Positions 12,656-17,220 of a stretch of DNA of 25,179 nt are shown piece after piece (positions within the stretch are counted from its first letter, which is position 1; every line of letters begins with the position of its first letter). Source of the DNA: a virus. A program made the translations under genes and the position numbers. The notes under the pieces were generated by a model, which was not told where the DNA came from, did not search any database, and saw nothing but the letters and a program-made list of their open reading frames with translations. The DNA is taken from the IMG/VR virus record IMGVR_UViG_3300046698_000109, positions 1 to 25,179 of that record; one strand, given 5' to 3'.

Positions 12656-12850
12656 TCACCCCTCTCCTGTCTCCGCGAGGATATGCGCTCGGCCGAGCAA
12701 GTCGCGGACACGGCGGCGCTTGGCCGCGTTCTCCGCCTTGGCGGCCAGCCCAGCGGTCGCCGATGGGGCCGGTGTCTGCGGCGTCGCTCGTACCGTGACG
12801 CGCCCGCGGTGCTCGACTGGCGGCCTCGGGCGCCGCGTCTGCTTGCTCAC
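12656..12850 (-). CDS. Small basic protein following the portal fusion
   Basis: 64 residues from a GTG at 12850 overlapping the stop of the portal-Nudix-MuF gene (GTGA). MSKQTRRPRPPVEHRG is basic and Pro-rich, and GLAAKAENAAKRRRVRDLLG is a basic helix. No known motif. The overlap indicates translational coupling to the portal fusion. Confidence 0.5.
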   Translation of the reverse strand: MSKQTRRPRPPVEHRGRVTVRATPQTPAPSATAGLAAKAENAAKRRRVRDLLGRAHILAETGEG

Positions 12851-15800
12851 TCGCCCTCCTCTGCGGACGGCGCGCCGGGGATGTTCGAGGGCGCCAGCGC
12901 GCAACGGCAGTTGTGAACAACTAGACTGTTGGCCATGTACCAGCCACTTTCCGTCTCAAGGTTATAGACGTGGCCGCTCCACTTGACCCTGCGAAGGTCG
13001 ATGACGCGATCGCTCTCTACCAGTCCGGCAAGACTGCCGATGAGGTTGCGGCCATTGTCGGCATCGGGAAAACGAGCGTCTACCGAGTCCTCAGACGGCA
13101 CGGGCTTAGGGCCCGCCCGAAGTTTCGAGACCTGGACGTCGCCGCCATCGTGAGCCGCTACCTTGCCGGCGAGAGCGAACTTGCGTTGTCTCGTGCCTTC
13201 GGTATCGACCGCAACGGCATCCGGCGGAGGCTCACCGACGCTGGAGTCGCTCCCCGCGACTGCTCTGCTGCCATGTTCGTCCGCATGGCCCGTTCCACTC
13301 CCGATGAACGGCGCCAATGGGCTCAAGCTTCCCACGACGCGATCCGAGGGACGAAGTTCTCCGACGCTCGTTTGGCCAACAAGGCGCTCGGCATCGAACG
13401 TATCGGCCATGTGACAAGCAAACTCGAACTCACGATGACCGAGTGGCTCCGCGACCGTGGCGTGGACCGCATCGTTCCCCAGAAGGCCATCGGTCCGTAC
13501 AACGCAGACATCGGAGCCGCCCCCGTCGCTGTGGAAATCTACGGTGGCAACTGGCACGGATCGGGCCACCACGCGGAACGCTCCCCCAAGCGTTTCCGCT
13601 ACATCCTCAATCAGGGCTGGGCCGTGATAGTCGTCTGGGTGAATCGCAACTACCCGCTCGACGGCAGGGCAGCGAATTACGTTGCTGCCTACATTGAGGA
13701 GGCCCGCGGCGACCCATCCCTTGTCGGTGAGTACCGGGTGATTCGGGGTGACGGACAGCTCGTCGCCCAAGGCCGTGACGATCTCGACAAGCTCACCGTC
13801 ATACCACCGCTCAACTGACCCGACTACCCGTGGGCCCGCGGTGATCGTCCCAGCTGGGAAGCACTGGGGGTGGATCGGTACATCCGGCGCGTCGTCGAGG
13901 TCGTAGGGGTTCGCGTCCTCAAGCTCCTCGCACTCGTCGCACGGCTCGAATGTCAAAAGGTCCACCTGCTCGACGCCGTTCTCCTGGTAGGTGTCGATGC
14001 TGGCCGAGGTCATCGCCCTGGCCGTCTCCGTGTCCGCGATCATGAACGCCCGGTCGGGGTCGGCGATCACGTCCGACATGGCCGAGGCGATGGTCGCCGG
14101 GGGGTCGCCTGCCGCGATCCCGTCCGCCAGCGCCGTCCCGATCCGGTCCATCGCCGAGTCGCTGATGCCCTGGATGGTGATGCCGCGGGCGTCGAGGAGC
14201 GTCTTGAGACCGCCCCCGGCATCCTTCAGCGCGGCGTCGCCCCAGCCGGGCGTCCACGTCTCCCAGTCGCGGCTGACGCTCGTCAGCATGTCGTCGGAGA
14301 GCCAGGACGGGGCGCGGGCGTCCACCCCGAGAGCGTCGCGCGCCGCCTTGGTCCCGCCCGCGTAGGCGTCGGCGTACATCTGGGCGAAGACGGCGTTGGC
14401 GCGGGCCGCGTCAATCGAGACGTTCGCCTCCACCGCGGCCCGGGCGTCGCGCGCCGCGTTCGGCCCGCTCGGCGTCGGTGTAGCCGGTGAAGCCTTGGAA
14501 GCCCGCGTCACCATAGAAGCCACCGCTGCGTCGATCCCCTTCGTCCCCTCCCGGAGCGCCTGGGCGATCTTCGGGGCGTACGCCTCGGGGATCCGGCGGC
14601 GCAGGCCGGAGCCCTGCCACCGCGAACCTTTTGGGTCGGCTTTCACCGCCTTGAAGAACGTCTGGACCTGCTCCTTCGTCTTCATCTTCGCCAGCGACTT
14701 GTAGATCCGGTGGCCGAGCTCGACCGGGATGCAGGCGTCGGTGAAGTACTTCGGCGTCCGCCCGAACCGCAGGGCCAGGAGGGCGTTCGTCCGCCACTGG
14801 CTGAGCGCCTTCTGCAGCGCCTCCTCGGCGTCCGCCTCGTCCTCGTCGTCGTCATTGAAGCCCGTCAGGTTGACACCCTGCAGCCCGGTCTCGGCCGTGA
14901 TGCCCGCCGTCGGGCCCGCGTCGCACTTGGCGAGCTTGCCGGCCTGGGCGATGACCACCCAGTCGCTCGTGTGGCACTCGTCGCGCAGGTTCGGCATCGA
15001 GGGCAGCTCGACCGGGTCGAGCCAGCACACGACCTCGATGAGGTCCTGGTCCGGGTCATCCGGGTTGAGTACGCCCCGGTTCTCCGGGTCCGGATTGAGG
15101 TGGACGAGATCCTCGGAGGCGATGACGTAGACGAACCCGCGGTAGATGCCGTTCGGACTCGTCCAGGAGCCGTCGAAATAGCCGTCGGGCAGCGGTACGC
15201 CGACCTCCTCCTGCCACTCCCGGACCGCTGCCTGCATCGCCGTCTCGCCACCCTCCATGTGGCCACCGGGGAACTCGAAAGTCCCCGCCGCCGGATCGCC
15301 GGGCTGCAAGGCGCGCTGGATCATCAGCACCCTGCCGGAGTCCGCCGCCTTCACGACCAGGCCGCCGACGTCAAGCTGCTCGAGCTGCTTGGCCGCGGGC
15401 TTGGTGCCCGGCGGCGCCTTGCTCCCTGCCGCGGGCGCGACGTTCGTCTCGTCGTGGGCCGGTTCCTGCCCGGCCGCGGGCTTGGCTCCGCCGCTGGTCG
15501 GGGCGGGCGCGGGCGCTACCGGGGGCGGATTCTGTCCAGGCGCTTGTCCACCCGGTTGTCCGGGCGGGAGCTGGCCGCGGGCACCGGGCGTCGGACCGCC
15601 TGCCGGCGGCGCCTGCAGCTCGCCGGGGACGATGAACTCGCGCGGCTGGATCTTGTCGAGGTCCGGCGCGCCCGTCGTCGGGTCCCAGTCCGAGAACCAC
15701 TTCGAGATCGCCTCGATGTAGCCGAGCGGCGTCACGCCGAGCCGGCCGCCGGCGTCGTAGAAGCGAGGGATGCGCTTGTCCGGGTCGACCGACAGGCCGA

Positions 15801-17220
15801 GGATCTTCTCGCGCACGTCGTCGGGGGAGATCACGCCGGCCTTGATGTAGCCGACCTGCTCCTGCATCACCTCGACCCGGTCTTCCTTCTCCCGGCCGGT
15901 GTCGAAGAAACACTCGACCGGGAGCCCGAGCTCCTCCTGGGTGATCGGGTTGAGGAACACGTCCTCAATGAAGGACGTACGCGGAAGGTCTGAGATGCGG
16001 AATTGCTGGTCTACCTGCGTCTCTGACGTTGCGCGGTTTACATCTGCGAGGAGGCCGAGGTCCTGGGGCGTGCGGTGGAACATGGCGATCGTCCGGCGCT
16101 CCAAATGCTCCGAGAACGCGACATCGAAGTTCTGCGGCTTGTACGGCGTGAACTTGGCGCCGAACGGTAGCCAGCGCATCCCCCAGCGCGCCGACTGGTC
16201 GCCCGTCATGAAGTTGTCCCACAGTTCCTGCCAGGCGGCGAGGGCGTCGGGGTCCGACTGGTCCGGCGGTGCCTCGGCGAAGCCCTCCGGGATTTGCCCG
16301 CCCGTGAACATCTGCAGAAAGTAGAACTGGAACCTCACGTCCGTGTTGGCGTTGAGCAGCACGCACTCGATGGGCGACAAGCCGTAGCGGGGGTCCTCGG
16401 CGCGCGCCGTGAACGGCTCGTACACGATCAGCGTCTCGTCGGTCCAGCCCCAGGGGAGGCCCTGGACGAACTGGACGAACGCCGGGCCCGGTGCGTCGGG
16501 CCGCTCGCCCCAGTAGTCGACGACCGGCGCCCACATCCGCCCGTCCGGGACCTGGACCGCCTTGAGGCGCCCGCCCTTGTCCTTGACCTTGTAGACCATC
16601 GCGCAGTCGTAGGCGCACTGCTGGTAGACGAGCTTGGTCAGCCACACCTTCCAGGGGTGCTTGCCGTCCGGCTTCTTCCAGAACTGCTTGGCCTGGGCGA
16701 TCTCCTTGCTGACATCGCCCTCGTAGCCCTCGACGGCCCGGAACAGGAGCGGCATCGAGGTCATGCTGGCGATGATGTGCGAGATGCAGATCTGGGCGAT
16801 GTCGTAGCCTTCTATGATCTGCGTCAGCGTAGAGAACGGGATCCGCCCCGTCCTCGTCTCCGAGGCGATGTTCGTCCCCGGCGTGTACGGCCAGGTCCGG
16901 ATCGGCGCGTTGTAGCCCGCGTAGGGCCGGATCGGTGGCCCAGGACCGAGCGGCGGAGAGAACGAGATGCCCTGCTCGATCAGCGCCGCGGCGATGTCGT
17001 CCGGCGTGAGCGTCGTGCGCGGGGCGAACGATCCCGAGGCGGCCGCGGCGACGGCGGCGAGGTCGACGTGCCCGGTGGAGATGTCCTCCGCGGTGTGCGT
17101 CGCCATCAGCGCCCCAGCCGCGGAGCGCGCCGCGTCCTTGACCGCCCGGGCGGCGACGACGTGCTCGCCGGGCAGCGGACGGTAGCGGGTGCCCCTGACG
17201 GCGTCGCGGACGAGGCTCAC
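12847..17220 (-). CDS. Portal - Nudix - MuF head-morphogenesis fusion protein interrupted by an intein
   Basis: 1457 codons; about 1139 residues remain after splicing. Residues ~1-570 are a portal: PYTPGTNIASETRTGRIPFS, DETLIVYEPFTARAEDPRYG, then the DLGLLADVNRATSE loop. A Pro/Gly linker follows. A Nudix hydrolase domain spans ~616-760, and its box GGHMEGGETAMQAAVREWQE plus EVGV fits GX5EX7REUXEEXGU fully, with the metal-binding glutamates present. From ~840 to 1119 is a MuF-type domain (ANAVFAQMYADAYAGG, FEPCDECEELED, DVPIHPQ). It ends, after the intein, with CRCALAPSN, restoring HPQCRC. Portal forms the DNA gate and MuF lies inside the head. Portal-MuF fusions are known; a Nudix domain between them is unusual. 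The gene overlaps its neighbours by four bases each. Confidence 0.85.
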   Translation of the reverse strand: MSLVRDAVRGTRYRPLPGEHVVAARAVKDAARSAAGALMATHTAEDISTGHVDLAAVAAAASGSFAPRTTLTPDDIAAALIEQGISFSPPLGPGPPIRPYAGYNAPIRTWPYTPGTNIASETRTGRIPFSTLTQIIEGYDIAQICISHIIASMTSMPLLFRAVEGYEGDVSKEIAQAKQFWKKPDGKHPWKVWLTKLVYQQCAYDCAMVYKVKDKGGRLKAVQVPDGRMWAPVVDYWGERPDAPGPAFVQFVQGLPWGWTDETLIVYEPFTARAEDPRYGLSPIECVLLNANTDVRFQFYFLQMFTGGQIPEGFAEAPPDQSDPDALAAWQELWDNFMTGDQSARWGMRWLPFGAKFTPYKPQNFDVAFSEHLERRTIAMFHRTPQDLGLLADVNRATSETQVDQQFRISDLPRTSFIEDVFLNPITQEELGLPVECFFDTGREKEDRVEVMQEQVGYIKAGVISPDDVREKILGLSVDPDKRIPRFYDAGGRLGVTPLGYIEAISKWFSDWDPTTGAPDLDKIQPREFIVPGELQAPPAGGPTPGARGQLPPGQPGGQAPGQNPPPVAPAPAPTSGGAKPAAGQEPAHDETNVAPAAGSKAPPGTKPAAKQLEQLDVGGLVVKAADSGRVLMIQRALQPGDPAAGTFEFPGGHMEGGETAMQAAVREWQEEVGVPLPDGYFDGSWTSPNGIYRGFVYVIASEDLVHLNPDPENRGVLNPDDPDQDLIEVVCWLDPVELPSMPNLRDECHTSDWVVIAQAGKLAKCDAGPTAGITAETGLQGVNLTGFNDDDEDEADAEEALQKALSQWRTNALLALRFGRTPKYFTDACIPVELGHRIYKSLAKMKTKEQVQTFFKAVKADPKGSRWQGSGLRRRIPEAYAPKIAQALREGTKGIDAAVASMVTRASKASPATPTPSGPNAARDARAAVEANVSIDAARANAVFAQMYADAYAGGTKAARDALGVDARAPSWLSDDMLTSVSRDWETWTPGWGDAALKDAGGGLKTLLDARGITIQGISDSAMDRIGTALADGIAAGDPPATIASAMSDVIADPDRAFMIADTETARAMTSASIDTYQENGVEQVDLLTFEPCDECEELEDANPYDLDDAPDVPIHPQCFPAGTITAGPRVVGSVERWYDGELVEIVTALGDELSVTPNHPVLTDKGWVAAGLLNVGSNVIRCPAVERVVAIHPDDYHGPALIEDVAETLGGAFRVVARSVPVATVDFHSDGGGSDVCVVRTDGLLGNDAVHATVAEPLGHREFEFACHMADTFDAERLVGQTSVGELRPSDRVVGSLSPLAPFIGSGTGHADEHGSRAVAGSDSSVGEPPPDAVAVDTEGTRQRKFALAGKVAAHDGGDVQVSKLRAGPKPVPSEDSVDARFPDADNGRNLIGSLAGLVESDRVIDLRRVKWSGHVYNLETESGWYMANSLVVHNCRCALAPSNIPGAPSAEEGE
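12910..13863 (-). other. Intein (318 residues) inserted in the MuF HPxCRC motif
   Basis: Residues 1120-1437 of the portal fusion. The N-terminus CFPAGTITAG with Cys1 is block A, VTPNHPVLTDKGWVAAG holds the TxxH of block B (His 42), GHVYNLETESGWYMANSL is block F, and it ends VVHN before an extein Cys. So the splicing residues Cys1, TxxH, His-Asn and Cys+1 are all present, giving a normal class 1 intein. Removal joins HPQ to CRC. Between blocks B and F there is no LAGLIDADG or HNH domain in this frame; the plus strand instead encodes a complete endonuclease (12970-13818). The insertion site is a highly conserved motif, as inteins prefer. Confidence 0.92.
12970..13818 (+). CDS. Antisense homing endonuclease, two HTH units plus Vsr-like nuclease core
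   Basis: 282 residues, the only convincing plus-strand gene. The start is a GTG at 12970 with AAGG nine bases upstream; an in-frame stop at 12922 excludes a much longer version. Residues 12-47 (AIALYQSGKTADEVAAIVGI, then KTSVYRVLRRHG) and ~57-92 (IVSRYLAGESELALSRAFGI, then RNGIRRRLTDAG) are two HTH units. Residues 150-225 resemble the Vsr-like EDxHD nuclease group: KLELTMTEWL (Glu153), YNADIG (Asp180), VAVEIYGGNWHG (Glu189, His196), then RFRYILNQGWAVIVVWV. It lies antisense inside the intein and should cut intein-less MuF alleles. Expression signals on the plus strand are weak. Coding quality is clear; homing function is inferred. Confidence 0.85.
   Translation: MAAPLDPAKVDDAIALYQSGKTADEVAAIVGIGKTSVYRVLRRHGLRARPKFRDLDVAAIVSRYLAGESELALSRAFGIDRNGIRRRLTDAGVAPRDCSAAMFVRMARSTPDERRQWAQASHDAIRGTKFSDARLANKALGIERIGHVTSKLELTMTEWLRDRGVDRIVPQKAIGPYNADIGAAPVAVEIYGGNWHGSGHHAERSPKRFRYILNQGWAVIVVWVNRNYPLDGRAANYVAAYIEEARGDPSLVGEYRVIRGDGQLVAQGRDDLDKLTVIPPLN

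Follow-up and report, generated by a model that had tools for sequence, protein, structure and literature searches.

Introduction

In classical homing inteins such as PI-MtuI and PI-SceI, the homing endonuclease forms a domain in frame with the splicing blocks, within one polypeptide. I-Bth0305I and other Vsr-like homing endonucleases are encoded in introns, or are free-standing beside or between split inteins, and are not known to lie antisense inside a contiguous intein. 'Fractured gene' loci with Vsr-like homing endonucleases were reportedly described by Dassa in 2009.

In the ShiLan-type 'hidden HNH' insertion of phage methylases, a mobile insertion in a phage gene is open in the host frame and its endonuclease is hidden in another frame (Arsenault, Gosselin, Gogarten 2025, PMC11855218). 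That paper cites a preprint on actinobacteriophage inteins and 'non-canonical architecture' for overlapping frames in actinobacteriophages (Gosselin, Arsenault, Gogarten 2025, doi 10.1101/2025.01.02.630785). In addition, the Methylococcus capsulatus genome paper (2004, PMC517821) notes an intein with no recognizable endonuclease in F of a Mu-like prophage.

The locus described here lies in a stretch of viral DNA of 25,179 nucleotides (IMG/VR record IMGVR_UViG_3300046698_000109, positions 1 to 25,179), which we refer to as the window. We used sequence comparison, structure prediction and analysis of substitutions to investigate an apparent intein on one strand of this DNA and an apparent endonuclease gene on the other.

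Results

A putative intein and a putative endonuclease gene on opposite strands

On the minus strand, a head gene of the window is interrupted by an element of 954 bp, which encodes a 318-residue intein inserted between HPQ and CRC of the MuF motif. The features of this strand, with their basis in parentheses, are as follows.

12847-17220, minus strand: host gene, fused portal-NUDIX-MuF ORF of 1457 codons, interrupted by the intein (ORF list and Pfam)
12910-13863, minus strand: intein, 318 aa (sequence; Pfam Intein_splicing; NCBIfam; AlphaFold)
13861-13863, minus strand: intein Cys1 (sequence)
12910-12915, minus strand: intein His317-Asn318 (sequence)
12907-12909, minus strand: extein Cys+1 (sequence)
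13738-13749, minus strand: intein block B, T39-P-N-H42, opposite endonuclease residues 257-260, apparently dual-constrained (sequence and family codon analysis)
13522-13536, minus strand: intein F110-H-S-D-G114, opposite the endonuclease VAVE that includes the catalytic E189, apparently dual-constrained (family codon analysis)
12910-12972, minus strand: intein blocks F and G, His298 to Asn318, antisense to the nuclease start codon and ribosome site (sequence and family comparison)

With portal, NUDIX and MuF domains in a single ORF, the host gene is an unusual head-gene polyprotein. The intein has the complete signature of the class 1 type (Cys1, the TxxH of block B, a His-Asn end with its penultimate His, and Cys+1) and reads HVYNLE at residues 298-303. 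It was matched by Pfam Intein_splicing (6.7e-6) and NCBIfam intein_Nterm (2.9e-5), and a profile search matched it to the solved structures of PI-MtuI and the Pho RadA intein. AlphaFold supported the Hint fold, with pLDDT of 94-98 for the splicing halves, residues 1-70 and 281-318; residues 126-265 were mostly below 50, consistent with a disordered linker without predicted fold. No endonuclease was found in the intein frame by Pfam. From its sequence, we conclude that the minus-strand element is a class-1-type intein; splicing itself is inferred and has not been shown.

The plus strand of the same DNA carries these features.

12970-13818, plus strand: predicted homing-endonuclease gene, GTG start, TGA stop, 282 aa (ORF; Pfam; AlphaFold; purifying selection in the family)
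12988-13098, plus strand: first helix-turn-helix (HTH), residues 7-43 (Pfam HTH_7 and HTH_23; helices 7-18, 23-30 and 34-43)
13138-13239, plus strand: second helix-turn-helix, residues 57-90 (helices 57-65, 70-77 and 81-90; profile match to the two-HTH Cbp1 structure 2lvs)
13420-13704, plus strand: Vsr-like nuclease domain, residues 151-245 (conservation; profile search; Foldseek)
12958-12961, plus strand: Shine-Dalgarno-like AAGG of the endonuclease gene, antisense to the Asn-Leu of intein block F (sequence)

The two frames are exactly codon-aligned and antiparallel, such that position 1 of an intein codon is position 3 of a nuclease codon and position 2 is common to both; the GTG start (12970-12972) pairs with the codon of intein His298. 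Pfam matched the plus frame to HTH_7 (4.6e-7) and to MTES_1575, a Vsr-like nuclease (8.9e-4). In the nuclease domain, Y177, D180 and E189 are invariant in the family, and E153 and R208 are nearly so. When set against the EDxHD catalytic motif, E153, D180 and E189 are conserved in the family and His196 is common, with the residue-by-residue correspondence to I-Bth0305I remaining unsettled. An AlphaFold model built on a 70-sequence alignment had a mean pLDDT of 93.5. A PDB profile search with the nuclease found 3hrl (7e-7) and the I-Bth0305I catalytic domain 3r3p (1.2e-5), with Vsr itself only weakly matched (0.05), and 3r3p was also the best Foldseek match (prob 1.00, TMt 0.63, E 0.027). Foldseek gave no PDB match to the model at E < 0.001, probably because the chain consists of separate domains. 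Judged by sequence and by predicted fold, the protein has a Vsr-like catalytic core. Its N-terminal two-HTH part (window 12970-13239, plus strand) resembles the CRISPR-repeat-binding protein Cbp1 (2lvs, NF040595).

The original prediction, made without database searches, had placed the intein and the 282-residue plus-strand ORF at the coordinates listed above, and both were confirmed. The splicing residues (Cys1, TPNH, His-Asn and Cys+1) are all present in frame with portal-MuF, as it had stated, and the Pfam result bears out its claim that this frame lacks an endonuclease domain. It had described the plus-strand product as a complete two-HTH, Vsr-like protein, a description now supported by Pfam, the AlphaFold model, and the PDB profile and Foldseek searches. 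Its codon-for-codon antiparallel frames are seen in the pairing of the GTG start with His298, and the N-terminal part of the splicing domain does lie antisense to the C-terminal part of the nuclease, block B residues 39-42 being opposite nuclease residues 257-260.

Distribution of the two-strand arrangement

When each protein was used separately in tblastn, 127 and 120 phage records were found, with matches on opposite strands of MuF or head genes and all below 60% identity. For a check of the arrangement, 16 diverse phage loci were fetched (Gordonia, Idiomarinaceae, Edwardsiella, Pantoea, Vibrio, Klebsiella, Salmonella, Pseudomonas, Aggregatibacter, Acinetobacter, Helicobacter and E. coli phages, and Virus Rctr197k). 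The full plus-strand ORF was present in 16/16 of them, at a GC content of 36-68%, and the intein was open in the identical codon phase in 15/16 of these very divergent loci.

Family members were retrieved by degenerate DNA patterns; single-protein queries returned near-identical copies only. A pattern for the nuclease motif YNxD...VAVE matched at least 120 viral contigs, and the antisense intein was present in all 120 that were listed. A pattern for block B only, which ignores the nuclease, led to an antisense nuclease in 102/105 viral and 43/64 bacterial matches. Those without it were mostly other Hint proteins, in which the antisense frame closed within ~50 codons. Viral contigs and bacterial records together yielded 217 complete, distinct elements (GC 32-73%), all in the same codon phase. 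Cys1 is present in 204/217 and Cys+1 in 198/217, and the terminal Asn is almost universal. According to their titles, the bacterial records represent at least ten phyla (Actinobacteria, Firmicutes, Chloroflexi, Chlamydiae, Cyanobacteria, Proteobacteria, Bacteroidota/Ignavibacteria, Planctomycetes, Spirochaetes, Gemmatimonadota and others). The exteins are mostly MuF, and also include uracil-DNA glycosylase, a glycosylase-DNA polymerase A fusion, a phage metallopeptidase and a head maturation protease.

The uracil-DNA glycosylase-DNA polymerase A fusion with the same intein type is found at L179:7024-10434 (minus strand), and a single ORF at L023:1-4006 seems to contain two inteins, with an antisense nuclease motif in each. 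In a contig of an Acidimicrobiaceae MAG (L288, bog_793), the element matches that of the window in nuclease score and flanking residues, which suggests an actinobacterial host for the window virus. For the window's own element, no relative turned up that was close without being identical, and selection is therefore shown for the family and not for the window copy.

Evidence for mobility

Exact empty sites were detected with a Jerseyvirus query made of the joined flanks, at least 80% of which was covered in one place in 323/392 phage records; in those listed, the match was uninterrupted through the insertion site. Similarly, in Gordonia phages, 948 bp present in Vivi2 are precisely missing from Brandonk123. 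Among Kagunavirus phages, vB-Eco-KMB36 carries the element (L297) and KMB35 has the empty site. In the Jerseyvirus pair L008/L020, the intein DNA is 96.6% identical, and third positions differ in 11/177 codons of the nuclease versus 103/254 of the extein. A near-identical intein within strongly diverged exteins is as expected after recent transfer.

Most of the nuclease has been lost from three elements (L086, L112 and L276) that have kept the splicing parts, and in a fourth (L246) the splicing parts are kept and the antisense frame is closed. A free-standing relative of the nuclease is an annotated gene of Acinetobacter phage BUCT629 (L013:2501-3394), which is convergent with a MuF gene that lacks the intein and lies directly behind the stop codon of that gene; L013 has no intein, and its minus frames are full of stops. 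The nuclease-reduced elements and this free-standing gene fit a homing life cycle. At the MuF site of the Vivi2 element, Gordonia phage Nordenberg (L299) carries a different intein of ~269 aa without an antisense nuclease, so more than one intein type invades the site. Within the family, insertion at an exact site and recent horizontal movement are demonstrated by these computational comparisons.

It is possible that the antisense protein is real but acts as a DNA-binding regulator or antirepressor and not as a homing endonuclease, given that its two HTH domains resemble Cbp1 and resolvase HTHs. We consider this improbable, since E153, D180 and E189 are conserved in a domain like that of Vsr and I-Bth0305I, and the empty sites and horizontal spread fit homing.

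Selection on both strands

Seventeen independent pairs, 72-97% identical, were compared, and codons with a single change were classed by the effect of the change on each strand. In the exteins, changes that were synonymous in the intein frame and altered the antisense frame outnumbered the reverse by 981 to 124. In the middle of the intein the pattern was inverted in 17/17 pairs, with 224 such changes versus 662 that were nuclease-synonymous (extein versus intein middle, Fisher p 7e-196), which indicates that the nuclease strand is under purifying selection there. At intein residues 20-70, the block B region, the counts were 107 versus 77 and divergence was low at all three codon positions. 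These balanced counts and low divergence indicate that both strands are constrained in this region.

Synonymous codon choice in the nuclease frame was unbiased over residues 1-184 and strongly biased at residues 185-189 and most of 239-279. The biased codons lie exactly opposite intein residues that are conserved for their own sake, namely block B and FHGDG, the family consensus for F110-H-S-D-G114 of the window intein, which is opposite the nuclease catalytic Glu189. Intein codons also suit the nuclease; for example, Val44 is GTA, which preserves nuclease Tyr255. As judged from these patterns, the dual constraint is local, being found in intein block B, a segment around residues 85-114 and the ends, and intein residues ~115-285 look like passenger sequence. 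The low-confidence part of the intein model agrees with this map. On this computational evidence, dual coding with selection on both strands is a property of the family, and the recurrence of the same two-strand arrangement in over 200 widely differing phages and prophages argues that a single piece of DNA has been kept as two proteins.

The absence of a predicted fold for intein residues 126-265 and the evolution of the middle as nuclease sequence only would also be compatible with a free-standing endonuclease gene that was inserted antisense in MuF, with in-frame translation of the minus strand merely tolerated and no splicing, a view that has been put forward for the ShiLan insert. This is very unlikely, because Cys1, Cys+1 and the terminal Asn are retained at the frequencies given above, the Hint halves fold with high confidence, block B is constrained on the intein strand, and the four elements that lost most of the nuclease or its open frame have nevertheless kept the splicing parts.

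Chance as an explanation for the antisense frame

In bacteria and phages, long overlaps between antisense genes are commonly suspected of being annotation noise. The antisense-stop codons TTA, CTA and TCA account for only 4/1140 extein codons of the window host gene and are so rare in this GC-rich gene that 283 codons would remain open antisense by chance with P ~0.37. Near the element there are longer, meaningless antisense ORFs of 427 aa and 522 aa. ORF length was therefore discarded as proof of an antisense gene, and the open frame of the window, being weak evidence alone, required comparison with relatives. In low-GC phages, TTA, CTA and TCA are avoided across the element, with probabilities of ~1e-5 to 1e-28 for the most strongly affected genomes taken individually; these values are somewhat inflated, since the stop-free run was defined from the data. 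By family comparison, the plus-strand ORF is not a chance antisense ORF. That it is a by-product of GC-rich coding opposite a normal mini-intein, as might be supposed from the window, where a frame of this length is expected about one-third of the time and other long antisense ORFs are present, can be practically ruled out and is refuted for the family by a frame that stays open at GC 32-50% with strong avoidance of these codons, by plus-strand purifying selection, and by the conserved catalytic residues, fold and free-standing homologue.

The original prediction had also named outcomes that would refute it: homologous inteins lacking a conserved plus-strand ORF, absence of purifying selection on that strand, and a 282-residue protein known only as a translation artefact. 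In the event, the antisense ORF was nearly always conserved among the viral block-B matches (102/105), the substitution classes of both strands revealed purifying selection on the plus strand (17/17 pairs inverted), and the confident fold and the free-standing relative in BUCT629 (L013) argue against an artefact. Its central idea, one segment encoding two proteins, is upheld for the family; the ORF itself provides no evidence in the GC-rich window, and the dual constraint is local.

Expression signals within the element

The nuclease gene of the window has a GTG start with AAGG only as ribosome site, and a promoter scan upstream of the nuclease in the window detected no sigma-70-like promoter and no recognisable -10 box. 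In the family, the block F His codon, read in antisense, provides the nuclease start codon (ATG in 141/213, GTG in 35/213), and this His codon is CAT in 141/176 versus 73 expected. The block F Leu codon is CTC, the complement of the GAG of a Shine-Dalgarno sequence, in 135/189 versus 51 expected (p 1.2e-36). Antisense to the last intein codons before His-Asn, TATAAT was found in 18.6% of elements versus 1.9% expected from synonymous shuffling, and the extended -10 sequence TGnTATAAT in 12.9% versus 0.4%. The putative start codon, ribosome site and, in many members, extended -10 promoter of the nuclease are antisense within blocks F and G; promoter use is inferred. Signals inside the element would make the nuclease gene expressible wherever the element lands.

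Discussion

The best explanation of these results, and in our judgment a highly probable one, is that a self-splicing intein on the minus strand and a separate homing endonuclease on the plus strand together form one mobile element. There are no transcript, protein, splicing or cleavage data, and splicing, cutting and promoter use, like any control through colliding transcription, are inferences. On the minus strand a portal-MuF precursor would be made, and the intein would remove itself from it by protein splicing; the plus strand would yield the separate two-HTH, Vsr-like endonuclease. This enzyme would recognise the intein-free MuF site of another phage, either co-infecting or resident, and cut it, and repair on the template of the invaded copy would then insert the whole 954-bp element. 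Since a late structural gene hosts the element, the nuclease would probably be silenced by late transcription running in the opposite direction, and may then act in early infection; this is an inference only.

With less assurance, we favor the broader view that the element represents a widespread, anciently formed class of mobile intein in phages and prophages of at least ten phyla. One strand of this class would specify splicing and the other its homing endonuclease, whose start codon, ribosome site and extended -10 sequence are antisense in the splicing motifs and whose expression is probably limited to periods when the host late gene is silent.

This would be another way of building a mobile intein, one that is missed by searches for an in-frame or same-strand endonuclease. 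Inteins of this kind have been recorded as lacking an endonuclease, and intein surveys confined to the host frame undercount mobile elements. The element family also provides a clean natural test case for dual coding: two unrelated folds share ~280 codons, and more than 200 natural variants allow selection on each strand to be mapped at the level of single codons.

A literature search found no account of an antisense endonuclease within an intein; the 2025 actinobacteriophage intein preprint (doi 10.1101/2025.01.02.630785) and Dassa 2009 were outside its scope. Some of the Gordonia phages found here may be in the data source of that preprint, and priority is uncertain. The intein of M. capsulatus also lies in a MuF-type gene, and the available part of PMC517821 does not mention the antisense strand; this intein is likely to belong to the same class, viewed from a single strand.

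With the classical homing inteins, the window element shares the splicing blocks and the homing logic, but its endonuclease is antisense, so it departs from the canonical architecture. To I-Bth0305I it is related through the catalytic domain, by profile (E 1.2e-5) and by fold, and differs in its location. The closest published precedent is the ShiLan insert, which resembles it in the respects outlined in the Introduction. In the ShiLan insert, however, the hidden HNH enzyme is encoded on the same strand, and neither a splicing domain nor a detectable ribosome site is present, whereas the window element places a Vsr-like enzyme on the opposite strand and has full splicing motifs and an embedded ribosome site.
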